Source: an uncultured Lachnoclostridium sp. (GTDB taxonomy: Bacteria; Bacillota; Clostridia; Lachnospirales; Lachnospiraceae). Taken from it: a DNA stretch of 64,000 nucleotides. A model generated the notes under the pieces. That model did not search any database. It saw only the letters and a program-made list of their open reading frames with translations, and had not been told where the DNA came from. The stretch spans positions 60,743 through 124,742 of the forward strand of contig CAMMSL010000005.1 of NCBI GenBank assembly GCA_946499505.1, in the 5' to 3' direction. The translations under genes were made by a program, and so were the position numbers. Of the stretch, positions 19,651 to 36,477 are shown piece by piece. The first letter of the stretch is position 1; the number at the start of each line of letters is the position of its first letter.

Positions 19651-19700
19651 AAAGGATATGATGCAGGAGCTGCTAAATCAGTTCAGGCATCATATCCTTT
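19651..19700. terminator. Bidirectional terminator between convergent genes
   Basis: AAAGGATATGATGC (19651-19664) and GCATCATATCCTTT (19687-19700) form a perfect 14-bp stem that overlaps the end of the lysR-type gene. The T-rich flank is better on the minus strand. Confidence 0.75.
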
Positions 19701-20548
19701 GTCAGTTTCAGGAATTTCAGAGCGGCCGGCGTCAGATCCTTTTTGGACTTCATAGCAACCCCAAGGGTTCGGGAGCAGAAAGGTTTCAGAGGATAAGCCG
19801 ACACATGGGACTCAAAGTTGCGGCAGGTAAGACCCGGAAGAATACTGATCCCCAGCTTATTTTCAATCATGGAGATGATCGCATGGTCATCTTTTGATGT
19901 GAAGTCGATATTCGGTTTGACACCGGAACTGCTCAGCGCATGATGAACATCGTAATCCGTCCCCATGGCAGAGATGACAAAATGCTGCCCTTCAAACTTT
20001 TCTATGGGAAAGATTCCGCCTTCCGGAGCCGGATAATCGAGGGGAACAACTGCATAAAGAGGATCCTCATACAGAGATATCCAGTCAAGAGATTTCGTAT
20101 TTCTTTTGCTGACGAACCCAAAATCGACAAGATCGGATTCAATCCAGTTTACAATATCGTCTGTGCCTCCTTCCATCAATTTGATCTTGATACCCGGATG
20201 GTTCTGCTGGAAGACATGTATGATTTTCGGGAGCCAGTGGATAGAAATACTGGAAAATGTTGCAATCACGAGCTGTCCTTTTTCGAGTCCGTTTATCTCG
20301 CTGATCATCTGTTCGAGATGTTCGGTCATGGCGAGGAGAGAACGTACGCCGGGAAGGATCATTTTCGCATTTCCGGTAAGCTTCACTCCCTGTTTAGATC
20401 GTATAAATAAAGAAAAACCTATTTCGTCCTCCAGTGATTTCAGAAGATGGCTTACGCCGGATTGAGTGTATCCCATACGGTCGCCTGTTTTTGTGAAATT
20501 TTCTGTTTCCGCCACATCTGCAAACAATAGAAGTTTCTTAATATCCAT
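19673..20548 (-). CDS. LysR-family transcriptional regulator next to the prd locus
   Basis: 291 residues: N-terminal winged helix-turn-helix (MDIKKLLLFADVAETENFTK, GYTQSGVSHLLKSLEDEIG) and a C-terminal substrate-binding-type effector domain. Start ATG 20548 has AGGAGGATCA just upstream, so the longer reading frame to 20644 is not used. It is divergent from prdC. LysR proteins usually control a divergent neighbour, so it is a candidate regulator of the proline reductase genes. No PrdR-type sigma-54 activator is visible in this locus. Confidence 0.93.
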   Translation of the reverse strand: MDIKKLLLFADVAETENFTKTGDRMGYTQSGVSHLLKSLEDEIGFSLFIRSKQGVKLTGNAKMILPGVRSLLAMTEHLEQMISEINGLEKGQLVIATFSSISIHWLPKIIHVFQQNHPGIKIKLMEGGTDDIVNWIESDLVDFGFVSKRNTKSLDWISLYEDPLYAVVPLDYPAPEGGIFPIEKFEGQHFVISAMGTDYDVHHALSSSGVKPNIDFTSKDDHAIISMIENKLGISILPGLTCRNFESHVSAYPLKPFCSRTLGVAMKSKKDLTPAALKFLKLTKDMMPELI

Positions 20549-20609
20549 TGATCCTCCTCCTGTTCTTGTCCGCCCGCGACTATATTGTGTGCATTGTTTA
20601 AATAAAGAA

Positions 20610-20648
20610 AAAGACGTCGGGGACGGCCCTGACGTCTTTGTCATTTTT
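20610..20648 (+). terminator. Intrinsic terminator upstream of prdC
   Basis: AAAGACGTC (20610-20618) pairs perfectly with GACGTCTTT (20631-20639), followed by GTCATTTTTT. No plus-strand gene ends here, so it may end a short leader RNA or antisense transcription from the lysR side. Confidence 0.7.
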
Positions 20649-20659
20649 TAATAATAACT

Positions 20660-20693
20660 GATATCTATTAATATTTTATAAAGTATAGACATC
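20660..20693. promoter_or_regulatory. Candidate operator between lysR-type gene and prdC
   Basis: GATATCTAT (20660-20668) and ATAGACATC (20685-20693) are an inverted repeat matching at eight of nine positions with a 16-base AT-rich centre. LysR sites are typically interrupted palindromes of this kind. Confidence 0.4.
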
Positions 20694-20757
20694 GGAACCG
20701 GTTCTGTCAATAGATTCTATGATGAGAAACTGTCATGACAAAAGCAGTAAACGTCAT

Positions 20758-20786
20758 TTTACTTTTGACGGAGACGCGCATATAAT
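20758..20786 (+). promoter_or_regulatory. Promoter of the prd operon
   Basis: TTTACT at 20758, 17-base spacer, perfect TATAAT at 20781, giving a leader of about 26 bases. No sigma-54 -24/-12 element is visible. Confidence 0.55.
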
Positions 20787-20818
20787 CAGAGGCAAACATA
20801 CGGAAAGGAAGTGATCTG

Positions 20819-22117
20819 GTGAAGCGAATATTTCGCTTTCCTTTAAAACAGAATATCGGTGCAAAGGCTGCCCCAACAGTTGTCGAAGGTGACAAAATTG
20901 TTCGCGGGCAGCTTATTGCTTCTGTCGGAGAAAGTGAGCTTGGAGCAAATCTGTTTTCCAGTGTGAGCGGAAGTGTCACGGGGATTGATGAAAATGAAAT
21001 CCGTGTGCAGGCCGACGAAGTGCAGCCTGCCGAATATAGAAAGCTGTCGGGAAGCAATCCTCTGGAACTGATCAGAGAAGCCGGGATCGTCGGCCTTGGC
21101 GGCGCAGGATTCCCTACATACTATAAACTTAAAGAACCATTTAAAACAGATGGAATTGTGATTGTCAATGCCGCGGAGTGTGAACCGATCCTTGGACATA
21201 ATATAGCGGCAATTGAAAAGAATCCGCAGAAACTGATACGGGGTCTGCAGATTGTCATGGATATCGTACATTCATCAAAAGGCGTTGTAGCAATTAAAGA
21301 AGTGCATTCTCAGGCAGTTGAAAAACTGAGGGAAACACTGGACGATGACAGAATAAGGATCGCGCTTTTACCTGATATGTATCCGATGGGAGAAGAGAGA
21401 GCTGTTATAAGAGAAGTGACAGGCACGCTGCTCGGTGTAGATACACTTCCTCTTGATGCTGATGCGATCGTAGTTAATGCTGAAACGGCCTGCCGGATAG
21501 AGGAAGCTGTAGATTTGAAAAAACCTCTCATAGACAAGGATATGACTGTTGCGGGAAAGCTGAGAGGAAATACAGATCTGATCCGAATCTTTGAGAATGT
21601 TCCTATCGGGATGAGCGTACGTGACGTCTTTGATATGGCAGGAGGGCTTGCGGATGAATATGGTGAAATCATTATGGGCGGTCCTTTTACCGGAAAGCGT
21701 GTACAGCTCGATGATCCGGTCATAAAGACTACGGGCGGTCTGATCGCAGCGGAATGCTTTATGAAAGGGCCGGAGAAACTGGGGCTTCTGGTCTGTGCGT
21801 GCGGAGCAGGCAGGGAACGGCTGGAGGAGATTGCGAAGAGTATGGGATCCGAGGCTGCCGGCGTAGAGTACTGCAAGCAGGCACACAGGGTAAAGAACAG
21901 CCTGAAATGTGAAAATCCGGGAAAATGTCCGGGACAGGTACAGAAAGTCATGGCACTTAAAAAAGCAGGTGCGCAGGCTCTTCTGATCAGCAACTGTACA
22001 GATTGTACCAATACTGTGATGTCGTGTGCCCCGAAACTGGGATTACCGGTCTATCATTGTACGGACGGCGCACTCCGGGCAGTGAATCATAAACTGATCC
22101 GGAAGATCCACACATAG
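20819..22117 (+). CDS. prdC: Proline reductase-associated electron transfer protein PrdC (RnfC-like)
   Basis: 432 residues of the RnfC-like family that passes electrons to D-proline reductase. The N terminus has the RnfC hybrid lipoyl-like barrel (MKRIFRFPLKQNIGAKAAPT), then the NAD/FMN-binding-like GIVGLGGAGFPTYYKL and NAAECEPILGHN motifs. The C-terminal part is Cys-rich (VCACGAG, KCENPGKCPG, SNCTDCTNT). All of these cysteines are encoded as Cys; no in-frame TGA is present. GTG start at 20819 with AAAGGAAG upstream. First gene of the prdC-prdA-orf-prdB set. Confidence 0.92.
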   Translation: MKRIFRFPLKQNIGAKAAPTVVEGDKIVRGQLIASVGESELGANLFSSVSGSVTGIDENEIRVQADEVQPAEYRKLSGSNPLELIREAGIVGLGGAGFPTYYKLKEPFKTDGIVIVNAAECEPILGHNIAAIEKNPQKLIRGLQIVMDIVHSSKGVVAIKEVHSQAVEKLRETLDDDRIRIALLPDMYPMGEERAVIREVTGTLLGVDTLPLDADAIVVNAETACRIEEAVDLKKPLIDKDMTVAGKLRGNTDLIRIFENVPIGMSVRDVFDMAGGLADEYGEIIMGGPFTGKRVQLDDPVIKTTGGLIAAECFMKGPEKLGLLVCACGAGRERLEEIAKSMGSEAAGVEYCKQAHRVKNSLKCENPGKCPGQVQKVMALKKAGAQALLISNCTDCTNTVMSCAPKLGLPVYHCTDGALRAVNHKLIRKIHT

Positions 22118-22196: not shown

Positions 22197-24050
22197 ATGT
22201 CAATTACAAAGGAAACACTGGAACAGCATTTGAAAGATCCGGCGATCTTCTGCTGCAGGAGACAGAAAGGGCTGGTGATCAGCGCGGCAGATCTGGAAGA
22301 TCCGTCACTGTTTGACGATATGGAGGAGGCCGGTCTTCTGAAACTGAGTGATGACGGCCTGAAGATCGAGCAGGTGATCGGTTCCACACTTGTATGCGAT
22401 GTGGAAGCCCTGACCCCTATTACCAAAGATATGGTCGACAAAGTAAATGAAGTAACAGAAATAGCTTCGAAGGAGGCGGATAAAGGGGAAGAGGGATCTG
22501 CACCTGCAGAAGGGAAGACAGATGCTCCCGCAGGTCCGATTCCGCAGGTCAAAGCAGTACAAGGAGGAAACGGCATGATACATATTGAGATTGGAAAAGC
22601 AGAAAAACTGGAACATTTGAGCATGGATATCCCTGTGTTTTCAGGCCCGGGTGCAGCGGCACCTGTATGTACAGGCGGAGAAACTGCGGGAGCAGCAGAC
22701 TCTTCCGCAGTTCCGGATGAAGAAAAGGCCGGTGAAAAGAAAGTCATCCGTACCCTTATCAAGAAACATATCCGTATTACGGACGCGGAGATCGGGACAG
22801 AGACTTCCATTAAAGACGGAAAGATTACGATTGATAAAAATATTATCGAAAAAGCGCTTAAGGAAGATCCTTTGTGCAAGAAGATCGAGCTCGATGTGAT
22901 CAAACCGGATAACAGGCATATTTATACAGAGACCATCATGGATATCTGCCCGATCGCGACAAAAGTTGAAGGCGAACTTGGAAGCGGCGTGACAAAAGTG
23001 GCAGACGGCGTTGTATTCATGCTGACAGGCGTGGATGAGGATGGTGTACAGATCCATGAGTTCGGCTCCTCAGAAGGTTATCTGGACGAAAAAATGTATT
23101 TCGGTCATCCGGGATGCGCAGATGAGAATGATATTATCATCCGCTGCAATGTTGTGATCGAGAAGAAGACCGGAATGACACGGCCGGGTCCGTTTGCGGC
23201 ACATAAGTGTCAGGATTATATTATTCAGGCAGTCCGCGACGAACTGAAGAAATATGACGGTGAAGTAGTGCGTGAGGAAGTGTGTGAAGACGTCCGCAGA
23301 CCGGGTAACCCGAGAGTCGTGCTTGTAAAAGAGATTATGGGACAGGGAGCCATGCATGACAATGTGATCTGTCCGACAGAACCCTGCGGTATTCTGGGCG
23401 GGCAGAAAAACGTGGACTGCGGAAACGTACCTATCATCCTGACTCCGAATCAGGTGCGTGACGGCTCTATCCATGCATTGACCTGCATCGGACCTGCCAC
23501 CAAAGAGATGACCAGACACTATATCCGGGAACCTCTTGTAGAGGGGCTCGCGGCGGACAGTGAAATGGATCTTGTAGGAGTTGTTTTCGTCGGTTCGCCT
23601 CAGGTGAATGATGAGAAGATGTGGGTTTCCGAAAGGCTGGGATCTCTTCTGGAGTCTCTGGATATTGATGGCTGTATCATTACAACAGAAGGCTTCGGAA
23701 ATAACCATATTGATTTTATCCAGCATATCGGACAGGCGGGAAAACGAGGCATTCCTGTGGTAGGCGTCTCATTCTGTGCTTATCAGGGCCAGCTTGTAGT
23801 AGGAAATAAATATGCTGACGCCATGATCGAAGAAAATATGGACAAAGGCGGTTTTGAGAACAATGTAGCTGGATGTTCCTGTGTTACAAAAGAGGTGGCG
23901 GCAAGAGCGATCCAGATGCTGAAGAACAAGATGGCCGGAGTTGAGATCAAGCCTGCGCCGAAGAAGTGGGACAATGAAGTTGTTAACAATAACAACAGGC
24001 TGCTTGGACTTCCGGATACTGAGCTGTTAGACTCCGGGACAATGCACTGA
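22197..24050 (+). CDS. prdA: D-proline reductase proprotein PrdA
   Basis: 617 residues. PrdA is made as a proprotein that cleaves itself to give a large subunit and a smaller one bearing an N-terminal pyruvoyl group, which binds D-proline. The cleavage residue is predicted to be Cys430 in IHALTCIGPATKEMTRHY. Residues about 110-185 form an Ala/Gly/Glu-rich variable stretch. C-terminal features include GFGNNHIDFIQHIGQAG and NVAGCSCVTKEVAARAIQML, shared with glycine-reductase GrdE-type proteins. ATG 22197 follows GGAGGAAATGAG. It works with PrdB. Confidence 0.95.
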   Translation: MSITKETLEQHLKDPAIFCCRRQKGLVISAADLEDPSLFDDMEEAGLLKLSDDGLKIEQVIGSTLVCDVEALTPITKDMVDKVNEVTEIASKEADKGEEGSAPAEGKTDAPAGPIPQVKAVQGGNGMIHIEIGKAEKLEHLSMDIPVFSGPGAAAPVCTGGETAGAADSSAVPDEEKAGEKKVIRTLIKKHIRITDAEIGTETSIKDGKITIDKNIIEKALKEDPLCKKIELDVIKPDNRHIYTETIMDICPIATKVEGELGSGVTKVADGVVFMLTGVDEDGVQIHEFGSSEGYLDEKMYFGHPGCADENDIIIRCNVVIEKKTGMTRPGPFAAHKCQDYIIQAVRDELKKYDGEVVREEVCEDVRRPGNPRVVLVKEIMGQGAMHDNVICPTEPCGILGGQKNVDCGNVPIILTPNQVRDGSIHALTCIGPATKEMTRHYIREPLVEGLAADSEMDLVGVVFVGSPQVNDEKMWVSERLGSLLESLDIDGCIITTEGFGNNHIDFIQHIGQAGKRGIPVVGVSFCAYQGQLVVGNKYADAMIEENMDKGGFENNVAGCSCVTKEVAARAIQMLKNKMAGVEIKPAPKKWDNEVVNNNNRLLGLPDTELLDSGTMH

Positions 24051-24051
24051 T

Positions 24052-24519
24052 ATGGCCGGGGCAGAGTATATCATCAATCCTGTCCTGATGGGCGGACTGG
24101 TGAAAGAAGTAACCGGAGACATGATAAAAGTGCATCTGCACGGCCGTCTGGGCGTTATTACGGTTCCCGCGGAATGTATTTTAAGGGGAACAGAGGAAAA
24201 CTCCGGCGGGGAAGAGCCTGCGGCCGGAACAGAGATGCAGTTTTACTTCAGCTATCTTCAGGTGAATGAAAATCCATATGATTATGATGCATGTGCGATA
24301 AAAAACGGCGAATTTGAACCATGCTTAATTGGTGGAACAATCACAGAAGTAAATGATACTGCCATTAAGGCGGAGATCATGGATGGTCTGGGTACGGCAG
24401 CAGTGCCCAGACGGTGGGTATTTACAGATGTAGAATTAAAAGAAGGGCAGAATGTGGAGTTCTATTTCAGCCCGATGAAAATATCCGGTAAAAGGGATAT
24501 CCCTGTGGAATCCATATAA
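24052..24519 (+). CDS. CBO2463/CBO2479-type protein between prdA and prdB
   Basis: 155 residues, starting 2 bases after the prdA stop, so cotranscribed and probably coupled. From memory, a protein of this type recurs between prdA and prdB in other clostridia, but no biochemical role is established. The sequence is an internal duplication: GGLVKEVTGDMIKVHLHG...FYFSYLQV in the first half and GGTITEVNDTAIKAEIMDG...FYFSPMKI in the second. Each repeat looks like a small beta barrel. A structural or maturation role in the reductase complex is inference. Confidence 0.8.
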   Translation: MAGAEYIINPVLMGGLVKEVTGDMIKVHLHGRLGVITVPAECILRGTEENSGGEEPAAGTEMQFYFSYLQVNENPYDYDACAIKNGEFEPCLIGGTITEVNDTAIKAEIMDGLGTAAVPRRWVFTDVELKEGQNVEFYFSPMKISGKRDIPVESI

Positions 24520-24538
24520 GAATGCAAGGAGGATGAAT

Positions 24539-25264
24539 ATGAAATTAACAACAGTAGAGGGTATGCAGTCCGAAATCTTTGTGCCGGTCACACCGGTCCC
24601 TGTATTTACAGAATTAAAGAAACCGCTTTCTGAATGTAAGGTGGCGTTTATTACGGCAGGAGGAATTCATAAAAAGAGCCAGACTCCGTTTAATACATCC
24701 GGTGATTATTCCTATCGGACGATTGAGTTCGATACACCGTCCTCAGAGCTGATGGTCACACACGGAGGTTTTGACAACTCGGACATTAATAAAGATGTGA
24801 ACGCTATGTTTCCCATTGACCGTCTTCATGAGCTTGTGGCAGAGGGCTTTATCGGTTCTCTCCCGAAAGAGACGTATACGTTTATGGGCGGCGGCGGAAA
24901 TGTAGAAAAATTCAAGGAGGAGACAGGACCTGAGATTGCCCGGAAATTAAAAGCTCAGGGAGTCGATATCGTACTGTGCACCGGTGGCTGCGGCACCTGC
25001 CACAGGTCTGCCACGATCGTTACGAGATGCTGCGAGGCGGCAGGAATGAGCTGCTGTGTGATCGCCGCACTCCCGCCTATCGCAAGACAGCAGGGAGCGC
25101 CGAGGATTACTGCTCCGCATGTGCCGATCGGTTCCAATGCGGGAGAGCCGAACAATATTCCGATGCAGACTGCCATTGTGAAAGAGTCACTGGAATGGGT
25201 ACGCGACTGTCCGGGATACAATCAGATAAAAGTACTGCCTTATGAGTACAGACATAATGTATAA
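24539..25264 (+). CDS. prdB: D-proline reductase subunit PrdB, cysteine variant
   Basis: 241 residues. PrdB carries the thiol or selenol that attacks the ring carbon of D-proline bound to PrdA, giving 5-aminovalerate. The active motif is CTGGCGTCHRSA; the second Cys (codon TGC at 24989-24991, residue 151) aligns with the selenocysteine near residue 152 of the Clostridium sticklandii enzyme as I recall it. Here the codon is TGC, not TGA. Start ATG 24539 (MKLTTVEG) is six bases after AGGAGG; ATG 24533 is too close. Last gene of the prd set. Confidence 0.93.
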   Translation: MKLTTVEGMQSEIFVPVTPVPVFTELKKPLSECKVAFITAGGIHKKSQTPFNTSGDYSYRTIEFDTPSSELMVTHGGFDNSDINKDVNAMFPIDRLHELVAEGFIGSLPKETYTFMGGGGNVEKFKEETGPEIARKLKAQGVDIVLCTGGCGTCHRSATIVTRCCEAAGMSCCVIAALPPIARQQGAPRITAPHVPIGSNAGEPNNIPMQTAIVKESLEWVRDCPGYNQIKVLPYEYRHNV

Positions 25265-25376
25265 CTGACAGTAACAGTTTACTCATTTACGAACAAACAT
25301 TACAAATCCTCATGACAGTATGAAAAAAGTTAATTTTACAAATATAATGTTTTGTGCTTAAATAAGACGCATAATC

Positions 25377-25424
25377 AAAAGGGACAGACAACGGAGTCGA
25401 AAAAGACAGTTGCCTGTCCCTTTT
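25377..25424 (+). terminator. Terminator between prdB and the amino-acid ABC transporter
   Basis: AAAAGGGACAG (25377-25387) pairs with CTGTCCCTTTT (25414-25424), extended by an inner ACAAC/GTTG helix; TTTTGCTTATTTC follows. A TATAAT at 25343 just upstream means it could instead act as a leader attenuator for the transporter. Confidence 0.7.
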
Positions 25425-25473
25425 GCTTATTTCATTTATAGAGGCATATGATTCTTAAAAGGAGGTAACTATT

Positions 25474-26358
25474 GTGAAAAAGAAAATAATTTCAATCTTG
25501 ATGACGACAGCCATGGTGATGACACTTGCAGCGGGCTGTGGAAGTTCATCAGGAAGCAGCGCAGGCAGCGAAGATAAAAAATCTGCAGAGGACAGCAGTT
25601 CCTCTTCATCCTCCGGGACAGATGGTTCGGTTGAAGGTGCACTGAAAGGTGTAAAACTTTCCTTCGGAACGACAGCACTTTTTGCCCCGTTTACATACTA
25701 TGACGAGGATGGAACTACACTGATCGGTTTTGATATTGATCTGGAGAAAGCACTTCAGGATTATCTTGGATTTGAGCTGGACGGAGATGTTCAGGTAATG
25801 GATTATTCAGCGCTGACCACTTCTCTTGCAGAGGGAAAACTTGATTTCGGCATGGCTGCCCTGTGTGCAACTGATGAGAGAAAAGCCGTTATGCAGTTCT
25901 CGGATACATACTGTGATTCCGGTCAGGTGGTTATGATCAACAAAGAGACGTCACCTAAGGAGATTACAGATATTGATACTCTGATAGACGGAGACTACAC
26001 GATCGCTGTAGAAAAAGGAACGGCTTCACATCTGTACTGCCAGAATAACGGAGTGGACGATTCCCGTCTTGAGGTACATGACACGATCACCACTGCATAT
26101 GAATCCCTTGAACAGGGCAAGGTTGATGCAGTGATCCAGGACTCACCGAATGCTTACTACTACATAAAAACAACAGACAATACAAAGCTTGAAGTCGTAG
26201 GAGATCAGTTCAATCAGGGACAGTCACCGTATGCGATTGCTATTTCCAATGATGCAGCGGAACGCAATGACGGCCTTGTGGATATTTTCAATCAGGCGCT
26301 TTCAGATCTGACCGATAACGGCACAATAGATGAGCTGACTTCAACATGGCTGGAGTAA
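25474..26358 (+). CDS. Amino-acid ABC transporter substrate-binding lipoprotein
   Basis: 294 residues. A lipoprotein signal peptide ends in the lipobox LAAGC (Cys near residue 22), followed by a Ser/Gly/Asp linker and a type 3 periplasmic-binding-protein fold for polar amino acids (GFDIDLEKALQDYLG, MAALCATDERKAVMQFSDTY, EKGTASHLYCQN). Start GTG 25474 with AAAAGGAGG upstream. It stands at the head of the transporter operon. Placement between prd and the hydroxyproline genes suggests proline or hydroxyproline as ligand, which is inference. Confidence 0.92.
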   Translation: MKKKIISILMTTAMVMTLAAGCGSSSGSSAGSEDKKSAEDSSSSSSSGTDGSVEGALKGVKLSFGTTALFAPFTYYDEDGTTLIGFDIDLEKALQDYLGFELDGDVQVMDYSALTTSLAEGKLDFGMAALCATDERKAVMQFSDTYCDSGQVVMINKETSPKEITDIDTLIDGDYTIAVEKGTASHLYCQNNGVDDSRLEVHDTITTAYESLEQGKVDAVIQDSPNAYYYIKTTDNTKLEVVGDQFNQGQSPYAIAISNDAAERNDGLVDIFNQALSDLTDNGTIDELTSTWLE

Positions 26359-26378
26359 TCTGAAATAGAAAGATGAAA

Positions 26379-26427
26379 AAGAGCAGGGATGCTTCAGCTG
26401 TTAAGCCGGAGCGTCACCTGCTTCTTT
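26379..26427 (+). promoter_or_regulatory. Intercistronic hairpin after the binding-protein gene
   Basis: AAGAGCAGG pairs with CCTGCTTCTT, with an inner GCTTC/GGAGC helix, and only a weak T run. Such hairpins often protect the binding-protein mRNA and let more of it be made than of permease and ATPase. Confidence 0.5.
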
Positions 26428-26458
26428 GATGAGTAACATAGAAAGAGAGGATTCATCT

Positions 26459-27106
26459 ATGGATTTGAGCTTTTTAAACGTACTGCTCCCCATGCTGTTT
26501 CAGGGACTGAAAGTTACGCTGTATATCGCGGTAGTCGGTATTCTTCTCGGATTCCTGCTGGGCGCTGTGACAGGTTTCGTACTGCAGACAAACTGCAGGA
26601 TCCTCAAAGCGATTGCCGGAGTATATATATGGATCATACGTGCGACACCTCTTATTGTTCAGGCACTGTATGTGTACTATGTTGTTCCGAAACTCATTGG
26701 CGTGGATCTGAGCAGCAACACAGCCGGTATTATTGTAATTACAGTCAACTCAGGAGCCTTTATAGCAGAAATCGTAAGAGGCGCACTGGAAGGAATCGAC
26801 CCGGGACAAAGAGAGGCGGGGCTTTCGCTGGGACTCACCCCTACGCAGACAATGTTCCATATTATTATCCCGCCTGCGTTTCGTTCTATGCTCCCGGCGC
26901 TTTTTAACCAGTTTATTATTTCAGTAAAAGATACGGCTCTGCTGTCTGTGATCGTGGTAAATGAGATAACAAAACAGATCCAGAACTATGCAGCCATCAG
27001 TTTCAGAACGATTGAAGCTTATACCACAGGCGCTGTATTTTATCTTGTATTGATCTCGATTCTGATCATTCTGCAGAAGCTGGTAGAACATAAGATCAGG
27101 GGGTAA
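26459..27106 (+). CDS. Amino-acid ABC transporter permease
   Basis: 215 residues of the HisM/GlnP type with about five membrane helices and the ATPase-contact motif [22 protein letters not shown] (20 shown as [20 protein letters not shown]). Start ATG 26459 ([11 protein letters not shown]) has AGAGAGGA correctly spaced; the upstream ATG at 26426 overlaps the intercistronic hairpin. Probably a homodimer. Confidence 0.93.
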
Positions 27107-27111
27107 GTGAT

Positions 27112-27843
27112 ATGATGCTTAAAATCAGAAATCTACAGAAAAATTTTGACGATCTTGAGGTCCTCAAAGATATCAATATTGATGTGGACGAAGGCGAGGT
27201 AGTGTGCATCATCGGGCCTTCCGGTTCCGGAAAAAGCACTTTGCTGCGGTGTATCAACCAGCTTGAAATCCCCACGGCAGGAGATATCGAGTATAAAGGG
27301 AAAAGCGTTACGGGTGGAGAGATAAAGCTGAGAGATTTCCGCGAGGAAGTAGGCATGGTCTTCCAGCGGTTCAACCTGTTCCCTATGAAAACGGTCCTTG
27401 GAAATGTGACGCTTGCTCCGGTACTGACAAAACATAAGAATAAGAAAGAAGCAGAGGAAAAGGCCATGGAGCTTCTGAGAAAAGTAGGGCTTGAAAACAA
27501 AGCTTCAGCGATGCCGGCAATGCTTTCCGGAGGACAGCAGCAGAGAGTCGCCATCGCAAGGGCGCTGGCCATGGAGCCTCAGGCGCTACTTTTTGACGAG
27601 CCGACATCTGCATTGGACCCGGAGCTTGTCGGAGAGGTGCTCAATGTTATGAAAGAGCTTGCAAAAGAAGGTATGACTATGGTTGTGGTCACCCATGAGA
27701 TGGCATTTGCACGGGATGTCTCCGACAAAGTTATTTTTATGGACGACGGTTATGTGGTGGAAGAGGGGACGCCGCATGAAGTACTGGAAAACCCGAAGGA
27801 AGAGCGTACAAAAGCATTCCTTTCTCGTTTCCTGAATTCATAG
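27112..27843 (+). CDS. Amino-acid ABC transporter ATP-binding protein
   Basis: 243 residues of the GlnQ/HisP family. Walker [10 protein letters not shown] near residues 35-43, Q loop [11 protein letters not shown], signature [14 protein letters not shown], Walker [14 protein letters not shown], and H loop VVTHEM. It follows the permease by 5 bases and energises it at the inner face of the membrane. Confidence 0.96.
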
Positions 27844-27877: not shown

Positions 27878-28543
27878 ATGCAGAAGTATGTTATTACAAT
27901 AACAAGAGAGTTCGGCAGTCTGGGAAGACCGATCGCTAAGAGATTGTCCCAGCTGCTGGGCATTAATTACTATGACAGGGATATTGTGGAGGCGACGGCA
28001 AAGCGTATGAATCTGCCGGTATCGACTCTGAGCGGCAAGGAAGAGAAAAGATCCAGTTTCTGGAAAATGCTGGTGCCGCTGGGAACGGATTCTCCGGAAC
28101 AGCAGGAGCGGATTTTTGTTACGCAGACGCAGATCATCCATGAGCTGGCGGAGAAAGGTTCCTGTATCATTGTAGGCCGCTGTGCAGATTATGTACTGAA
28201 AGACGAGTTGAACGCTATTCATATTTATATCTATGCTCCGTATGCGGACCGGCTGGCAAACTGCGTGGGACCGCTGGGAATGGAGAAAAATGAAGCGAAG
28301 CGAATGATACGGGAAGTAGACCGGGCGAGATACGCATACCATAAACATTTTGCAAAATATGCTCCGGGAGATCCTCAGCACAAGCATATCATCATCAACA
28401 GCGCACTTCTGGAAGTGGAGGGAACTGCTCAGGCACTTGCCACCATTGCCCGGCAGAAATTCGGAGGCGAGGAAGAAACCGGATTTTTGACAGCACCCCG
28501 GAAGACGTCAGACGGCGCTCCGGAAAAGGAGGCGGAAGAATGA
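27878..28543 (+). CDS. Cytidylate kinase-like family protein
   Basis: 221 residues of the cytidylate-kinase-like family (Cytidylate_kin2 type). The N terminus [18 protein letters not shown] holds the family's degenerate nucleotide-binding loop, and [14 protein letters not shown] and the Arg/His-rich [13 protein letters not shown] segment follow. It is not the housekeeping Cmk, which has a canonical GPxGSGK loop. The substrate is unknown. It overlaps the next gene (racemase-TetR) by 4 bases (ATGA), so the two are coupled; a link to proline metabolism is not explained. Confidence 0.83.
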
Positions 28544-30147
28544 AATGTCCGAGGGTGCGGAAATATGCATATCATTTGAAAACCATTGATTCACATACAG
28601 AGGGCGAGGCGACCCGGATCGTTTATGACGGCTTCCCGGAATTACATGGCGAAACCATGATGGACAAGAAAAAATATCTGATGGATCATTATGATTTCCT
28701 GCGCACAGCGCTGATGCTGGAGCCCCGGGGACACAGGGACATGTTTGGCGCTCTGCTCACGGAGCCGGTACACAAAGAGGCGGATTACGGCGTTATATTT
28801 ATGGACAGCGGCGGCTGCCTCAATATGTGCGGGCATGGCAGCATAGGGACAGCTTCTATGCTGGTAGAAACCGGGATGGTAGATGTAAGGGAGCCATATA
28901 CAGAAGTGGTGCTGGATTCACCCAGCGGTCTGATCCGTGCAAAGGTGCATGTAGTGGACGGAGAGGCGGTAGAGGTCAGTATCCTGAACGTACCCTCATT
29001 CCTATTGAAAGAGGATGTCACGGTGCAGACATCTCGGTTTGGAAAAGTCCACTGTGATATCGCGTTCGGCGGTTCTTTTTTTGCCCTTGTAGATGCGGAG
29101 AAAATAAGTCTTTCACTGGAGACTGAGAATATTGATGAGATTACAGATCTGGGAATGGAACTGAGGGATAAGATCAACGCCACGGTGACGGTCAGACATC
29201 CGTATCTGAATATTACGAGCGTTGACCTTGTGGAATTTTACGCACACACGGACTATAAAAATGCCGATATGAAAAACTGTGTGATATTCGGCAGTGCGCA
29301 GGCGGACCGCTCGCCCTGCGGTACAGGCACAAGCGCCAAATTAGCGTCACTGTATGCCAAAGGCGAACTGAAGCTGCACGAAAAATTTCTGTATGAAAGT
29401 ATTACGGGCTCTATCTTTCGCGGGGAAGCGGTGAGTGAAGTGGATATTGCGGGAGGAAAGGGCATTATACCACAGATTACCGGAAGCGCCTATATTATCG
29501 GATTTAATGAATGGATCATTGACAGTCAGGATCCGCTTAGAAACGGTTTCCTTCTAGGAAGCCGGACACAGGAAGAGCAGGAAAACCCGCGCAGCCGTAT
29601 CGTACAGGCTGCATGGAAACTGTTCCGTGAGAAAGGGTATGAGCAGACAGATACAGCAGATGTGATTGCTCTTGCAGAAGTGTCGGAAGACGAATTTTAC
29701 CGCTTTTTCACCCGGAAGGATGATCTGGAGCATACACTTGGCGATCTGTTCGACAGAAAATATGCAGAGCTCATGGTATCTATGAGCCCGAGACTGTCGG
29801 TCCGTGAAAAACTGATCTATCTTAATAAAGAACTGTTTACACTGATCGAGAAGGAAGTTCCTTTTGAGCTGGTGACACATATTTATGTCAATATGCCGGA
29901 AGAACGGCAGGAAATGCTGAATAAGGAGCGGTTTTATTATAAGCTGATTCCGCAGCTTATCGAGGAAGGACAGAAGAGCGGGGAGTTCTGGACTGATGAG
30001 ACAGCAGAGGCGGCCGCTGAAACCTACGCCTCTCTGGAGAGGGGTATGATCTATGACTGGTGTGTGAAAGGCGGAACAGAAAGTCTTGTGGAGAAAGGTC
30101 AGAAGATCATACCGGTTTATCTCGGATCTATGCTGAGCGGAACATAA
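28540..30147 (+). CDS. Proline racemase fused to a C-terminal TetR-like regulator domain
   Basis: 535 residues in one uninterrupted frame. Residues 1 to about 335 are a proline racemase/hydroxyproline epimerase: [16 protein letters not shown] at the N terminus, Cys97 in [11 protein letters not shown] and Cys260 in [14 protein letters not shown], the two-Cys pair of racemases (dehydratase relatives lack the first Cys). Residues about 350-410 are a TetR-type helix-turn-helix ([20 protein letters not shown], then [19 protein letters not shown]), followed by about 120 residues of helical ligand-binding-type sequence. The enzyme would convert L-proline to the D-proline needed by PrdA/PrdB. The attached domain suggests control of transcription by substrate occupancy. 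Proline versus hydroxyproline preference cannot be set by eye. Confidence 0.9.
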
Positions 30148-31079: not shown

Positions 31080-32322
31080 TCCATATAAGAACGTGATTGA
31101 TGTTATGGAAAAGGCAATGAAACTGGGAGACATTGATACATCTATGTTTGAGATACTGAAAAATCCGCAGAGGGAGACAAAAGTCTATCTTCCGGTGGAA
31201 ATGGATGATGGAAGCGTCAGAGTATTCGAAGGCTACAGAGTACAGCATTCTAATATACGCGGTCCGTTCAAGGGCGGTATTCGGTTTCATCAGAACTGCG
31301 ATCTTGATGAGGTCAAGGCTCTAGCCACCTGGATGACTCTGAAGTGCGCTGTGGCAGATCTTCCATATGGAGGCGCAAAAGGAGGAATCCAGGTAGATCC
31401 GTCGACTCTCTCTGAACGCGAACTTTGCGCTCTTACACGCCGCTATACTTTTGCCATAGCGCCGATCATAGGAGCGGATACGGATATTCCGGCTCCGGAT
31501 GTAAATACAAATTTTCAGACAATGGCGTGGGTGTTGGATACATACAGTCAGTTGAAAGGACATCCGTGTCCGGGCGTGGTAACAGGAAAACCGATTGAAC
31601 TAGGCGGTTCCAGAGGCAGAAATTCCGCAACGGGGCGAGGAGTTGTTATCAGTACGAAACTGATCCTGGCGCTGGACGGCAGACCGCTTGAGGGTACATC
31701 AATTGCAATTCAGGGGATGGGAAATGTGGGCGCAAATGCAGCGCGTATATTTTATCACAGAAAAGCAAAGATAGTAGCACTCAGCGATATTTCGGGAGGT
31801 ATCTATTGCGAGGACGGACTGGACGCGGATGCCGTCTCAGCGTTTCTGGAGCAGGGAAATGTAATGATAAAAGATTATAATGCCGAAGGTGTTGTACACA
31901 TTTCGAACGAAGAAGTGCTTACCTGTAAATGTGATGTCCTTGTACCGGCAGCCCTTGAAAATCAGATAACTGCAGATAATGCGGCAAAGCTGAACTGCTC
32001 TTATGTGGTAGAGGCGGCAAACGGACCGACAACAGAGGAGGCAGACCAGATCCTTGATGCGAGGGGGATAACTCTTCTGCCGGATATATTTGCAAACAGC
32101 GGAGGGGTGATCGTCTCGTATTTTGAGTGGGTGCAGAATATACAGGAATTAACGTGGGACAGAGATCAGGTGAATGAGATGCTGGAGAAACTGATGTCAA
32201 GGTCTTTCCAGAATATTCTTGAAGAAAAAGAAGCCCATCATTGTTCTTATCGTATGGCGGCATATATTGTCGCGTTGAAAAAACTGGTATATGCGGAGAA
32301 ATTAAAAGGTATTTTCCCGTGA
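31063..32322 (+). CDS. Glu/Leu/Phe/Val-type glutamate dehydrogenase
   Basis: 419 residues, the usual length for hexameric NAD(P)-glutamate dehydrogenase. Substrate-site motifs GPFKGGIRFH, LPYGGAKGGI (catalytic Lys) and IPAPDVNT; nucleotide-binding AIQGMGNVGANAARIF. Start ATG 31063 with GGAGGT, inside the end of the transporter gene. It interconverts glutamate with 2-oxoglutarate and ammonia. In this operon it would recycle 2-oxoglutarate for the aminotransferase downstream. Confidence 0.94.
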   Translation: MRHTYNPYKNVIDVMEKAMKLGDIDTSMFEILKNPQRETKVYLPVEMDDGSVRVFEGYRVQHSNIRGPFKGGIRFHQNCDLDEVKALATWMTLKCAVADLPYGGAKGGIQVDPSTLSERELCALTRRYTFAIAPIIGADTDIPAPDVNTNFQTMAWVLDTYSQLKGHPCPGVVTGKPIELGGSRGRNSATGRGVVISTKLILALDGRPLEGTSIAIQGMGNVGANAARIFYHRKAKIVALSDISGGIYCEDGLDADAVSAFLEQGNVMIKDYNAEGVVHISNEEVLTCKCDVLVPAALENQITADNAAKLNCSYVVEAANGPTTEEADQILDARGITLLPDIFANSGGVIVSYFEWVQNIQELTWDRDQVNEMLEKLMSRSFQNILEEKEAHHCSYRMAAYIVALKKLVYAEKLKGIFP

Positions 32323-32364: not shown

Positions 32365-33273
32365 ATGTGCATGATCACAAATATACAAAGATACAGTATC
32401 CATGACGGAGACGGCATACGTACTACAGTATTTTTCAAAGGATGCCCGCTTCGATGTGTCTGGTGCCATAATCCGGAAGCCCAGAATAGAGGCAGAGAGC
32501 TTTTATGCAGCGGGGAGAAATGTACAGGCTGCGGTGCCTGTGCTGCGGTCTGTCCCCAAAAAGCTGTATCGTTAAAAAACGGGACAGCGCGGACCGACAG
32601 AAAGCTTTGCACTGCCTGCGGCGCCTGTGCGGAAGTGTGTGTCCTGAATCTGCGTGAAATCGCCGGCAGGGAATATACCGTGAAAGAATTGACCGCCGAA
32701 CTGTTGAAAGACCAGATATTTTATGAAGAGTCCGGCGGGGGAGTTACTTTTTCCGGCGGAGAGGTTATGGCCATGGATATGGATTTTATCCTTGAAGCTG
32801 CAAAGGAGTTGAAGCGGCAGGGCATTCCGCTTGCGATAGACACCTGCGGTTATGTTCCCTATGAAAGATTTCAGAGGATTCTCCCATATACGGATGTCTT
32901 TCTCTATGATGTAAAAGTGATGGATGAGGGACTCCATAAAAAGTATACGGGAGTGGATAACAGGCTGATCCTAGAGAATCTGGTCCGGCTTGCACATGAC
33001 GGGGCCCGGATCTGTGTCCGGATCCCCACAGTGAAAGAAGTGAATGGGAACGAGCGGAGTATGAAGGAAATCATAGCGTTTCTTCAGGAACATGACATTC
33101 ATCCGATCCAGATCAATCTGCTGCCTTACCATGATACAGGAAGCGGAAAGTATAGAAAACTGGATACAGCATATAAAGGTACAGACCTGCACGCTCCGGA
33201 CAAAGAAGAGATGGAAGCGCTGACCGCTCTGTTTATCAATGCAGGCTTTAAAAATACAAAAACAGGAGGTTGA
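32365..33273 (+). CDS. Glycyl-radical enzyme activating protein (HypD activase)
   Basis: 302-residue radical-SAM enzyme that installs the glycyl radical on the neighbouring HypD. The radical-SAM cluster is C27-x3-C31-x2-C34 (KGCPLRCVWCHNP). An inserted ferredoxin-like domain has two CxxCxxCxxxC sets at 53/56/59/63 and 82/85/88/92, as in activases of the PflA2 type. SAM-binding GGG-like motif GGGVTFSGGEV. The gene ends 4 bases before hypD. Confidence 0.95.
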   Translation: MCMITNIQRYSIHDGDGIRTTVFFKGCPLRCVWCHNPEAQNRGRELLCSGEKCTGCGACAAVCPQKAVSLKNGTARTDRKLCTACGACAEVCVLNLREIAGREYTVKELTAELLKDQIFYEESGGGVTFSGGEVMAMDMDFILEAAKELKRQGIPLAIDTCGYVPYERFQRILPYTDVFLYDVKVMDEGLHKKYTGVDNRLILENLVRLAHDGARICVRIPTVKEVNGNERSMKEIIAFLQEHDIHPIQINLLPYHDTGSGKYRKLDTAYKGTDLHAPDKEEMEALTALFINAGFKNTKTGG

Positions 33274-33277
33274 AACG

Positions 33278-35656
33278 ATGGGAAAATCACGGGGAATGAA
33301 TGAAAGAATCCGGAAACTTAGAGAGATCAGTGTGAATACACCGGTTCACATTGATCTGGAAAGAGCGAAGATTGAGACGGATTTTTACAAATTAAATGAC
33401 GGAAAATATTCCATTCCGGTTATGAGAGCTATGACTCTGAAAGAGTATTTCTCGAAAAAGACACTGTATCTCGGCGACGGCGAATTGATTGTCGGAGAGA
33501 AGGGAAAGGATCCTCAGGCTTCGCCTACATTCCCGGAACTTTGCTGCCACAGTGAAGAAGACATGGTTGTTATGAGCGAAAGAAAACTGGTGTCCTTCAA
33601 AACGACAGAGGAGGACCGCAGACTCCAGAAAGAGGAGATCATTCCTTACTGGACAGGAAGAAGCATGAGGGAAAAACTGCTTTCCAGAATGACGCCCCAG
33701 TGGCATGACTGCTACGAGGCGGGAATGTTTACCGAGTTTATGGAGCAGAGAGGCCCCGGTCACACATGCGGGGGCGAACAGGTATTTACCACCGGATACA
33801 TGGAGTACAAAGAAAAGATCAAAAAGACAATGGATGAACTGGATTACCTCAATGATCCGGAGGCTCTGGATAAATGCGAGGAACTCAAAGCAATGGACAT
33901 TGCCTGCGATGCTGTTATGATCCTCGGGGAACGTTATCATAAGCTGGCTCTTGAGATGGCGGAAAAAGAAACAGATGAGACAAGAAAGGCCGAGCTCTTT
34001 CAGATCGCGGCAAATCTGGAAGTGGTTCCGGCACACAGGCCTCAGACATACTGGCAGGCAATCCAGCTGTACTGGTTTACTCATCTTGCAGTCACAACGG
34101 AACTCAATCCGTGGGATGCATTCAGCCCGGGAAGACTGGATCAGCATCTGTATCCGTATTACAGGAAAGATGTGGAGGCAGGCATTCTGGATGACAGGAA
34201 AGCACTGGAACTCCTGGAGTGTCTGTGGGTGAAGTTCTACAACCAGCCGGCACCTGTTAAAGTGGGTATTACGCTGAAAGAAAGCGCGACCTACACAGAT
34301 TTTGCAAATATCAATACAGGAGGTGTCACTCCGGACGGACGCAACGGCGTAAATGAAGTGAGTTACCTGATTCTGGACTGCATGGATGATATGAGACTGG
34401 TTCAGCCGAATTCCAATGTAACAATCAGTAAAAAGACTCCTGCAAGATTCCTGAAGAGGGCATGTGAGATTTCCCGGGAGGGATGGGGACAGCCGGCTTT
34501 CTATAATACAGAAGCCCAGATCATGGAGCTGGTAAATGCCGGAAAGTCGCTGGCCGATGCAAGACGCGGGGGTTCATCCGGATGCGTGGAGACAGGCGCA
34601 TGGGGAAGCGAAGCCTATATTCTGACTGGATATCTGAATATTCCGAAGATTTTTCAGCTGACGCTGTTCAACGGATATGACCAGTACAGTGGCAAGCAGA
34701 TCGGTCTTAAGCTTGGAGAGGCGAAAGACTTTAAGTCATTTGATGAACTGTGGGCTGCATTTAAGAAACAGATGGAGTATTTCGTAGATGTTAAGATCCG
34801 GGGAAATAACGTGATCGAGAAACTGTATGCCGAGGATATGCCGGCTCCCTGTCTGTCTGTTGTGACAAATGACTGTATTTCCAACGCAAAAGACTACAAT
34901 GCGGGAGGCGCAAGATATAATACCAGCTATATTCAGGGCGTGGGCATCGGAACGGTCACCGACTGTGTTGCCGCCGTGAAATACAATGTTTATGACAAAA
35001 AGAACTTTACCATGGAGGAACTGATCGAAGCCATGGAGCACAACTTTGAAGGGTACGATGCGATTTATCATATGGTCCATGATAAAAGCCCGAAATACGG
35101 CAATGATGATGACTACGCAGATGAGATCATGCAGGATATCTTTGAGCTGTACAGAAGTACGATCACAGGCCGCCCGAATATGCGGGGAGGAGAGTACCGG
35201 ATTGATATGCTGCCGACTACCTGTCATGTGTATTTTGGCGACGTTATCCTTGCAACGGCAAATGGAAGAAAGGCACATAAGCCGGTATCGGAAGGAATTT
35301 CTCCCGAAAAATCAGCAGATACGCACGGCCCGACAGCAGTGATCAAATCCTGTGCCAAAATGGATCATCTGGCGACAGGCGGAACACTTTTGAACCAGAA
35401 ATTTACTCCTGATGTTGTAGCAGGAGAAACGGGACTGAACAACATGGCAAGCCTGATCCGTTCCTATTTTGCAATGGACGGGCATCACATCCAGTTTAAT
35501 GTGGTAGACCGTCAGACTCTGATCGATGCACAGCAGCATCCGGAGGACTACAAAGACCTGATCGTCCGCGTGGCAGGGTACAGCGACTTTTTCCGAAATC
35601 TGGATAAACCGCTTCAGGACGAGATCATAGAGAGGACGGAGCAGAGCTTCAGCTGA
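33278..35656 (+). CDS. hypD: Trans-4-hydroxy-L-proline dehydratase (glycyl radical enzyme)
   Basis: 792 residues. It removes water from trans-4-hydroxy-L-proline to give pyrroline-5-carboxylate. The thiyl cysteine and general base are Cys436 and Glu438 in GGSSGCVETGAWG, and the glycyl radical site is Gly767 in RVAGYSDFF; both lie two residues from the positions I recall for the Clostridioides difficile enzyme (434, 436, 765). Start ATG 33278 (MGKSRGMN) follows AGGAGG. Placement between its activase and proC supports HypD over other glycyl-radical dehydratases such as glycerol dehydratase or choline lyase. Confidence 0.93.
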   Translation: MGKSRGMNERIRKLREISVNTPVHIDLERAKIETDFYKLNDGKYSIPVMRAMTLKEYFSKKTLYLGDGELIVGEKGKDPQASPTFPELCCHSEEDMVVMSERKLVSFKTTEEDRRLQKEEIIPYWTGRSMREKLLSRMTPQWHDCYEAGMFTEFMEQRGPGHTCGGEQVFTTGYMEYKEKIKKTMDELDYLNDPEALDKCEELKAMDIACDAVMILGERYHKLALEMAEKETDETRKAELFQIAANLEVVPAHRPQTYWQAIQLYWFTHLAVTTELNPWDAFSPGRLDQHLYPYYRKDVEAGILDDRKALELLECLWVKFYNQPAPVKVGITLKESATYTDFANINTGGVTPDGRNGVNEVSYLILDCMDDMRLVQPNSNVTISKKTPARFLKRACEISREGWGQPAFYNTEAQIMELVNAGKSLADARRGGSSGCVETGAWGSEAYILTGYLNIPKIFQLTLFNGYDQYSGKQIGLKLGEAKDFKSFDELWAAFKKQMEYFVDVKIRGNNVIEKLYAEDMPAPCLSVVTNDCISNAKDYNAGGARYNTSYIQGVGIGTVTDCVAAVKYNVYDKKNFTMEELIEAMEHNFEGYDAIYHMVHDKSPKYGNDDDYADEIMQDIFELYRSTITGRPNMRGGEYRIDMLPTTCHVYFGDVILATANGRKAHKPVSEGISPEKSADTHGPTAVIKSCAKMDHLATGGTLLNQKFTPDVVAGETGLNNMASLIRSYFAMDGHHIQFNVVDRQTLIDAQQHPEDYKDLIVRVAGYSDFFRNLDKPLQDEIIERTEQSFS

Positions 35657-35685
35657 CAGTTCAGGTATTTAAGGGAGGTGTGGAT

Positions 35686-36477
35686 ATGAAGATTGGATTT
35701 ATCGGTACAGGAAACATGGCAGGCGCTATTATGAGCGGTCTCATTAATAAAGGAATCTTTCAACCGGATGAGATCATCGGTTCTGATATCAGCGGACAGG
35801 GCAGACAGAACGCGAAAGACAATTACAGTATCTGCGTGACGGAGGACAACAGAGAGGCGGCATCGGCGGAAGTGCTTGTTCTCTCTGTAAAGCCCCAGTT
35901 TTACGCTGATACGATCGCAGAGATCCGGGATAGTATGACAGAAAAGCAGCTCGTCATTACAATCGCTCCGGGCAAGACGCTGAAATGGCTGGGAGAACAG
36001 TTCGGAAAGGAGATGAAGATCATCCGTACTATGCCTAATACTCCGGCTATGGTCGGGGAAGGCATGACAGCAGCATGCCCTAATGAATTCGTCACGGACG
36101 AAGAGCTGGGATACGCTCTGAAGATTCTGGGAGCATTCGGAAAAGTTGAGATTGTTCCCGAGAGGATCATGGATGCCGTCGTAGCTGTGAGCGGAAGCTC
36201 CCCTGCGTATGTGTTTATGCTGATCGAGGCGATGGCGGATGCCGCAGTCATGGAGGGAATGCCGAGAACACAGGCCTATAAATTCGCCGCACAGGCTGTA
36301 TACGGAAGCGCCAAAATGGTGCTGGAGACGGGAAAACATCCCGGCGAATTAAAGGATATGGTCTGTTCTCCGGCAGGCACGACCATCGGGGCGGTAAGGA
36401 TACTGGAAGAAAAAGGCTTCCGAAGCGCGGTTATTGAGGCAATGAAAGCGTGTGCGGATATCTCCGGAAAGATTTGA
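35686..36477 (+). CDS. proC: Pyrroline-5-carboxylate reductase
   Basis: 263 residues. It reduces pyrroline-5-carboxylate to L-proline with NAD(P)H. The N terminus MKIGFIGTGNMAGAIMSGL is the Rossmann motif; TMPNTPAMVGEGMTA and the C-terminal VCSPAGTTIGAVRILEEKGF are ProC signatures. Start ATG 35686 is 8 bases after AGGGAGG. The reductase next to hypD is the established arrangement for hydroxyproline use. Confidence 0.96.
   Translation: MKIGFIGTGNMAGAIMSGLINKGIFQPDEIIGSDISGQGRQNAKDNYSICVTEDNREAASAEVLVLSVKPQFYADTIAEIRDSMTEKQLVITIAPGKTLKWLGEQFGKEMKIIRTMPNTPAMVGEGMTAACPNEFVTDEELGYALKILGAFGKVEIVPERIMDAVVAVSGSSPAYVFMLIEAMADAAVMEGMPRTQAYKFAAQAVYGSAKMVLETGKHPGELKDMVCSPAGTTIGAVRILEEKGFRSAVIEAMKACADISGKI

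Follow-up and report, generated by a model that had tools for sequence, protein, structure and literature searches.

Enzymes that have gained a DNA-binding module, such as PutA, and regulators that have arisen from enzymes, such as BzdR, are already known. In trifunctional PutA a ribbon-helix-helix (RHH) module is joined to a proline dehydrogenase and a pyrroline-5-carboxylate (P5C) dehydrogenase. The module of PutA binds DNA and represses the put genes (PMC5293562). In BzdR-type evolution a DNA-binding protein was fused to an enzyme domain that lost catalysis while the regulator was kept (PMC3602430). Here we analyze a gene encoding a proline racemase followed in the same reading frame by a TetR-type protein. 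It lies in a 64,000-nucleotide stretch of DNA (the window) from an uncultured Lachnospiraceae bacterium, Lachnoclostridium sp. (GCA_946499505.1, contig CAMMSL010000005.1, positions 60,743 to 124,742). Like PutA, the product joins a proline enzyme to a transcription-factor module; unlike PutA, it has seemingly lost DNA binding, and the domains of the two proteins are unrelated. Compared with BzdR, the reverse has apparently taken place.

The enzyme part resembles PrdF-type proline racemases (7pb3, AsProR; 1w61, TcPRACA) in its full domain, its two catalytic cysteines and its location in a prd/hyp locus. Unlike the fused protein, the listed 17 solved chains of the racemase family have no TetR part and span 318-414 residues. 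The nearest solved chains to the TetR part are 3lwj, 5gp9, 3dcf, 3whb (a fatty acid metabolism regulator) and QacR. It shares with TetR regulators a TetR_N match and an alignment across most of their length, and its score with the NCBIfam FadR model (43.6 bits) is far below the cut-off of 200. It differs from them in being C-terminal to an enzyme, in having lost most contact residues and the basic surface, and in that no operator was found. A D-proline reductase regulator, PrdR, is predicted for Clostridium, Clostridioides, Alkaliphilus and Geosporobacter (PMC6615313). The preliminary description of the window was aware of no described protein with the racemase-TetR architecture, and we too met none among the listings and opening lines of abstracts of open-licence papers.

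Judging from sequence comparisons, a proline-linked repressor was probably captured by the enzyme, lost its DNA binding and now serves as a protein-level module of the racemase. If true, the absorption of a repressor by an enzyme, followed by its disarming, would clearly exemplify the route opposite to those above. The separate-gene, fused and TetR-less states are all sampled within one family and form a direct experimental series. The comparison further provides a palindrome that can be tested and, for D-proline reductase and proline uptake in gut Lachnospiraceae, a TetR subfamily as candidate proline-responsive regulators.

The racemase-TetR fusion is conserved in Lachnospiraceae

When translated, the fused gene is stop-free over all 535 codons (Table 1). 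Pfam Pro_racemase (PF05544) covers residues 16-337 with 389.6 bits (cut-off 27, E 1.4e-116), and the closest solved chain is proline racemase A (AsProR, 7pb3; 400 bits). TetR_N matches with 35 bits, also above its Pfam cut-off (24). These results bear out the preliminary description of a two-cysteine racemase and a TetR-type helix-turn-helix (HTH) in one frame: the frame is open through 29560-29590, where a stop codon or frameshift was to be looked for, and TetR_N is found at residues 354-396. Cys97 and Cys260, which we take to be catalytic as is established for the family, are both retained in 13 of 13 fused rows of the alignment, one of which (L077) is a second copy of L021; L numbers denote retrieved stretches and G numbers genomes. 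In hydroxyproline dehydratases the second catalytic cysteine is replaced by Thr. The best NCBIfam model is proline racemase (PRK13969, 477 bits, cut-off 556), ahead of 4-hydroxyproline epimerase (320 bits), both scores being below cut-off. The gene is the only racemase match in its genome at E 1e-20.

The acidic linker between the two domains occupies the place of the basic N-terminal arm of separate TetRs. No in-frame ATG, GTG or TTG is present at residues 330-374 of the window gene, so its TetR part is not separately started ahead of the HTH; several other fused genes do have potential start codons close to the join.

To date the same in-frame join is found in 15 Lachnospiraceae sequences, including that of a cultured isolate, Blautia sp. 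Marseille-P3087 (L023, NZ_LT635539.1). All are named as Lachnospiraceae or share the family code of the window. The fusion is genuine and conserved. A scan with one genome per species gave nine loci matching near full length (L019 to L027), with frames spanning both domains, and additional fused frames are in G386, G352, G536, G696, G1144, G1136, G1226 and G1211. Of these, G352 encodes the same protein as L023 and G536 is the same record as L021. Near-copies are L019 and the window (99%), L094, L126 and L128 with one another, and G1226 (99%, like L019). G1211 runs from residue 138 onward, and L132 is truncated by a contig end before that residue. The TetR parts are 47-99% identical to that of the window, and the available part of all 15 sequences is free of stops and frameshifts. 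Beyond the family, no frame exceeded 376 residues in the 11 outside genomes of an order sample (29 racemase-bearing genomes) or the 41 of a phylum sample (42 racemase-bearing genomes). Loci of Selenomonas, Treponema and others from the whole-protein scan had no TetR in frame.

Two other frames were considered and rejected. A G142 match running through a TAA to residue 354 was taken for a possible TetR remnant, but the DNA past the stop runs into the next gene. A 498-residue frame in G655, considered as a racemase join, has its TetR part N-terminal, followed by a TIM-barrel domain. This is a reverse-order fusion in the same TetR subfamily (L075 6002-7489, G655:C28; one frame of 495 residues), seen in one genome: a TetR_N domain (57.6 bits) with an intact helix, TSKGSFYHYF, precedes a xylose-isomerase-like TIM barrel (AP_endonuc_2, 168.6 bits).

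State of the DNA-binding domain

The same TetR subfamily is also encoded by separate genes (31-42% identity), and we compared the fused proteins with racemase-adjacent and stand-alone relatives. The recognition helix (residues 382-389) has a mean pairwise identity of 0.98 among the adjacent (n=22), 0.80 among the stand-alone (n=13) and 0.35 among the fused proteins (n=11). Most of the adjacent TetRs carry TSKGTFYHYF, and the helices vary among fused species sharing one pathway. Dividing the HTH distance by that of the ligand domain gives 0.42 (0.26-0.66) for adjacent, 0.57 (0.37-0.83) for stand-alone and 1.21 (0.81-1.88) for fused proteins. Net charge over residues 341-398 averages +7.7 (4 to 9), +2.0 (0 to 5) and -4.8 (-9 to 0), respectively; it is never above zero in the 15 fused sequences and never below zero in the separate ones. 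The charge of the ligand domain is similar across the groups (-4.3, -3.0 and -4.6). The 11 other TetR_N domains of the window's genome range from -1 to +4, with the fused one at -5 on a like measure. Helix, charge and distance rows also exclude L116 and L121; the distance ratios leave aside the near-copies L019, L126 and L128 and the outgroup L007-L010; for charge and helix identity this outgroup does count among the 13 stand-alone proteins.

Base contacts in the gonococcal repressor MtrR are made by T43, R44, G45, Y48 and W49, and phosphate contacts by T11 and H50 (PMC8053128). Using the alignment offset from the MtrR model, taken as gap-free here, these correspond to residues 382, 383, 384, 387 and 388, and to 350 and 389. 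Among 12 fused proteins the consensus of the separate relatives is kept at base-contact positions 382 in five, 383 and 384 in none, 387 in ten and 388 in one, and at phosphate-contact positions 350 in none and 389 in two. Most contact residues of the separate relatives, tyrosine 387 being the main exception, and their basic DNA-facing surface are thus absent. HTH core positions 354, 358, 359, 362, 366, 370, 390, 393 and 396 are kept in 12 of 12, and so the TetR_N domain has not simply decayed. The pattern suggests that the fused protein no longer binds DNA.

A palindrome found with the separate TetR genes

TAGAC-N4-KTCTA was first noticed by eye in three divergent racemase/prdC regions of separate-gene clusters and then tested. 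With these discovery loci (L016, L107, L108) held out and L121 also excluded, the T form (TAGAC-N4-TTCTA) occurs with at most one mismatch in 14 of 15 adjacent-type regions, compared to a mean of 0.9 and a maximum of 4 in 60 shuffles, which take no account of the kinship of regions related by descent. A usable racemase/prdC region was obtained from 18 of the 24 racemase-adjacent loci. The 14 bases of the palindrome are 0.82 identical pairwise and the 60 bases on each flank 0.33 and 0.50. The G form (TAGAC-N4-GTCTA) is present with at most one mismatch in 16 of the 18 regions of adjacent type, where the best matches average 1.06 mismatches against 3.33 in shuffles, and with at most two in four of six tetR/putP intergenic regions, L078 being perfect. 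Position and conservation make the palindrome a candidate operator for the separate TetRs.

With at most one mismatch, the T form is in none of 18 promoter regions of fused clusters (four have two mismatches) and none of 21 from unfused, TetR-less clusters (three have two). The best G-form matches in the fused-cluster regions average 3.50 mismatches, the same as shuffles (3.44). These 18 regions come from 11 loci; L052 runs into a contig end short of the join, its fused state being unseen, and L020 and L019 contributed none (no 80-base gap, or absent from the list). No other palindromic dyad in the 18 regions was enriched above shuffles. The sole K-form site in the 64-kb window at one mismatch or fewer, at 31174-31187, is inside a glutamate-dehydrogenase-like gene, and one site is below chance expectation.

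Genome-wide, eight genomes with separate TetRs (G001, G364, G368, G668, G295, G250, G510 and G573) have 1 to 6 exact copies of the palindrome each, and in all eight one copy is at the racemase or putP region, largely the loci of the motif test. The fused genomes G000, G536 and G352 contain no exact copy. Exact copies are rare in every genome, so their absence alone means little. An exact copy of TAGAC-N4-TTCTA in G295 (G295:C1:437749-437762) is placed 51 bases ahead of this genome's second racemase gene (41% identical), an arrangement that would suit control of both by the same TetR.

A different element, TTTACAAAT, stands ahead of prdC, the binding-protein gene or the racemase gene. Of the fused-cluster promoter regions 8 of 18 carry it, and of the unfused-cluster ones 2 of 21 (shuffled means 0.2 and 0.1). 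We rejected it as a TetR site on judgement because it is present in both cluster sets in a similar setting; it is perhaps a shared -35-like or LysR-linked element.

The ligand domain is largely retained

Among 31 separate relatives, 44 columns after residue 398 and 29 up to residue 398 are at least 90% conserved. The fused proteins keep the consensus in 382 of 528 cells on the ligand side, compared to 190 of 348 on the HTH side. All 12 fused proteins retain R464, Y466, E482, Y496, E500, R501, Y505 and W507 and, among others, positions 359, 404 and 405; D506 is also kept. The ratio of nonsynonymous to synonymous substitution rates (dN/dS) for L021/L022 is 0.036 in the ligand domain, 0.047 in the HTH and 0.052 in the racemase; for window/L132 it is 0.043, 0.233 and 0.058, in the same order. 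These values are rough with dS of 0.8 to 2, the remaining pairs being saturated or nearly identical. Given the retained columns, the low dN/dS and 15 uninterrupted frames out of 15, selection appears to keep a folded domain, the ancestral pocket of which may have changed.

Separate TetR relatives are tied to proline genes

To place the separate relatives we surveyed 397 genomes of the family, 49 of which have a racemase at E 1e-60 (56 matches). A TetR relative is encoded within 1.5 kb downstream on the same strand of 31 of the 56 matches (30 of the 49 genomes). Three are fused (G000, G536, G696) and 28 separate, including one pair with a broken racemase (G417:C4) and one with a 1,120-base gap (G548). 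In all 11 retrieved stretches showing both, the racemase-tetR pair is oriented away from prdC-prdA-prdB. We also inspected the neighbours of nine relatives not adjacent to a racemase, seven from the 58 such TetR matches plus L017 and L018 from another scan. Seven are beside a putP-like sodium/proline symporter gene; five of these neighbours score 485-514 bits with TIGR02121, below its cut-off of 515.5, and the other two were recognized by tblastn. The L017 relative adjoins hypD and proC, and that of L075 adjoins neither these nor a putP-like gene. The TetR subfamily is thus tied to proline by gene neighbourhood, suggesting proline as its ligand.

History of the fusion

In the TetR tree, the domains from 12 fused proteins group together as a single clade (bootstrap 100; Shimodaira-Hasegawa-like approximate likelihood ratio test, SH-aLRT, 100). 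The clade is beside the racemase-adjacent TetRs, weakly (83/42), and L076 was flagged as a long branch of odd composition. The racemase domains of the fused proteins are not monophyletic, with fused and unfused rows alternating. The racemase tree requires 8 state changes, at least 3 of them forced by well-supported branches; a second tree, excluding L003, L004, L053 and L077, gives 7 and 4. A single clade of fused racemases is rejected (p 1.2e-15). In a set of 11 fused proteins, racemase distances correlate with TetR distances (Mantel r 0.70, p 0.0004), and they still do when two close rows are removed (r 0.52, p 0.019). The TetR tree excludes L077 and L005 (same place as L018), L126, L128 and L132 are in no tree, and racemase matches with fewer than 250 aligned residues (L006, L051, L052) were left out. 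The L044 racemase is split over two frames and only the longer piece was used.

A single fusion with several later losses of the TetR part best fits TetR parts that are monophyletic on racemases that are not; domain exchange between species may be an alternative history. TetR remnants 3' of unfused racemases were sought at 16 loci (L042 with only 300 bases; L039, L040 and L098 near-copies) and none was found at E 0.05.

Two loci have in-frame deletions, which may be real or assembly faults. In L030 (2250-3620), which is near L024, an internal deletion removes the HTH and the join. In L051 (1728-2426) larger deletions have taken parts of both domains.

The proposed capture of a repressor, and the alternatives

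In the scheme that we favour, a TetR repressor of the kind encoded beside racemase/prd and putP-like genes would have been fused in frame to the racemase C-terminus once, in an ancestor within the Lachnospiraceae. Most DNA-contact residues and the basic surface would then have been lost, with the fold and much of the ligand/dimerisation domain remaining under selection. The TetR part would most likely be a dimerisation and small-molecule-sensing module acting on the racemase. Its ligand may be proline or a derivative, and its predicted effect on catalysis would be to tune the interconversion of L- and D-proline ahead of D-proline reductase. Transcription of the cluster would more likely be left to the adjacent LysR gene. 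In the fused clusters of the window, L021, L023, L024, L027, L076 and L094, as in the unfused clusters L028, L029, L031, L039, L093 and L096, a LysR gene is oriented divergently to prdC, to the binding-protein gene or to the racemase; other loci are too short or arranged otherwise. Its product is the likelier candidate for the transcriptional regulator.

Several observations weigh against this scheme. In the ligand domain, S450, Q452 and L453 (28, 31 and 31 of 31 separate relatives) are lost in 12 of 12 fused proteins, and positions 401, 409, 445, 448, 514 and 519 are kept in just 0-2 of 12, so the ancestral ligand may no longer bind. For L021/L022, the sole unsaturated fused pair in which all parts could be computed at similar identity, HTH dN/dS (0.047) is no higher than that of the rest. 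The TetR domain was lost several times from related racemases and L030 is without the whole HTH, suggesting it is dispensable. TetR_N is above cut-off in eight of eight fused proteins tested, and the tyrosine kept at 387 is a DNA contact in many TetR proteins. The recognition segment of L026 has a net charge of +2 and two other TetR proteins of the window's genome carry an HTH of -1; charge alone therefore decides nothing. One of the 18 fused-cluster promoters, in L022, has the G form with one mismatch, and the fused genomes G696 and G386 hold three and four exact copies of the palindrome, all off the contig of the fused gene. Another sequence, TGTCATGACA, recurs in the fused-cluster promoters of the window (LysR/prdC) and of L021, a count within the reach of dyads in shuffles, and a new operator suited to the changed helix could exist.

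A narrower form of the captured-repressor scheme is that a proline-sensing repressor became an allosteric domain of the racemase, discarding DNA binding and keeping the sensor, with dimer and ligand states setting activity. We put this forward tentatively. If true, a former transcription factor would control the flux of L-/D-proline into D-proline reductase post-translationally.

We doubt that the TetR part is a passenger, a non-functional or purely structural appendage undergoing gradual loss. Its repeated loss on the racemase tree, the in-frame deletions in L030 and L051 and the several lost ligand-domain columns are what such a passenger would leave, but no stop or frameshift interrupts the available part of any of the 15 fused sequences. 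Likewise, the 44 near-invariant ligand-side columns are better kept than those of the HTH, and ligand-domain dN/dS is close to that of the racemase (a rough comparison, with dS about 2).

It is more unlikely still that the protein is a PutA-like trigger enzyme, able to bind DNA, though at altered operators, and to signal proline supply to prd/hyp transcription. The preliminary description had suggested such direct reporting to transcription, and the proline locus, a genuine TetR_N match, tyrosine 387, the proline-linked TetR subfamily and the precedent of a proline enzyme repressing its own genes via a fused DNA-binding domain (PMC5293562) agree with it; the G-form site of L022 raises its odds slightly. 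By sequence, the enzyme part is intact and the DNA-binding part appears disabled: most contact residues are lost in 12 of 12, and the acidic DNA-binding domain has a net charge of zero or less in 15 of 15. The palindrome of the separate TetRs is not retained in fused-cluster promoters save the one-mismatch case in L022, nor is another enriched in its place. Recognition helices diverge between fused species of the same pathway, and a LysR gene is already present in fused and unfused clusters alike.

An assembly or sequencing artefact joining two genes, conceivable in that most members are metagenome-assembled genomes and separate adjacent genes occur elsewhere, is refuted by the same join in 15 sequences including the Blautia isolate.

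Other features of the locus

The setting had been described as a hydroxyproline/proline-reduction locus, and curated models identify PrdC, PrdA, PrdB, the hydroxyproline dehydratase and its activase, and ProC (Table 1). The PF13189 cytidylate-kinase-like gene accompanies the transporter and racemase genes in many such clusters, fused or unfused.

Table 1. Coordinates of features in the window and of tRNA-Sec genes in related stretches
Feature	Position	Strand	Remarks
LysR-type regulator	19673..20644	-	divergent from prdC; present also in TetR-less clusters; synteny
LysR/prdC promoter region	20645..20818		best TAGAC-N4-TTCTA match 2 mismatches
prdC	20819..22117	+	TIGR04481
prdA	22197..24050	+	TIGR04480
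CBO2463/CBO2479-domain protein	24052..24519	+	NF041553
prdB	24533..25264	+	TIGR04483; Cys codon at place of TGA in Sec-type relatives
Promoter region ahead of transporter-kinase-racemase genes	25265..25473		best TAGAC-N4-TTCTA match 3 mismatches
TTTACAAAT box	25335-25343		in promoter region 25265..25473
Amino-acid-type ATP-binding cassette (ABC) transporter (binding protein, permease, ATPase)	25474..27843	+	named from translation alone
Cytidylate kinase-like gene	27878..28543	+	Pfam PF13189; overlaps racemase start
Fused gene	28540..30147	+	racemase with C-terminal TetR-type protein, 535 codons
Proline racemase domain, residues 1-340	28540..29559	+	Pfam Pro_racemase; closest solved chain 7pb3
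Catalytic Cys97 codon	28828..28830	+	MCGH; alignment
Catalytic Cys260 codon	29317..29319	+	SPCGTG; alignment
Linker, residues 341-350, acidic	29560..29589	+	alignment
TetR_N helix-turn-helix, residues 354-396	29599..29727	+	Pfam
Recognition-helix segment, residues 381-391	29680..29712	+	degenerate; most racemase-adjacent relatives have TSKGTFYHYFK
TetR ligand/dimerisation domain, residues 411-528	29770..30123	+	largely conserved
trans-4-hydroxy-L-proline dehydratase activase	32365..33273	+	NF043069
trans-4-hydroxy-L-proline dehydratase (hypD)	33239..35656	+	NF043068
Pyrroline-5-carboxylate reductase (proC)	35680..36477	+	TIGR00112
tRNA-Sec gene	L016 11705-11802		racemase/prdC intergenic
tRNA-Sec gene	L081 8519-8616		racemase/prdC intergenic
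tRNA-Sec gene	L084 6858-6955		racemase/prdC intergenic
tRNA-Sec gene	L090 8315-8412		racemase/prdC intergenic

The PrdB of the window has a Cys codon (GGCGTCHR), and the prdB genes of separate-TetR clusters (L016, L081, L084-L092) have an in-frame TGA, presumably coding for selenocysteine (Sec). Counting duplicates, TGC or TGT is found at 19 loci and TGA at 12. The selenium-free type of D-proline reductase appears, from these sequences, to go with the LysR/CBO2463-domain cluster. A tRNA-Sec gene lies in the divergent racemase/prdC gap of four of four Sec-type prd clusters checked; stretches L094, L027 and L021 contain none. At 38-45 kb of the window, adjoining the proline cluster, the minus strand presumably encodes diol-dehydratase-like proteins (large, medium and small subunits, a reactivase and a cobalamin adenosyltransferase), named by the resemblance of their translations.

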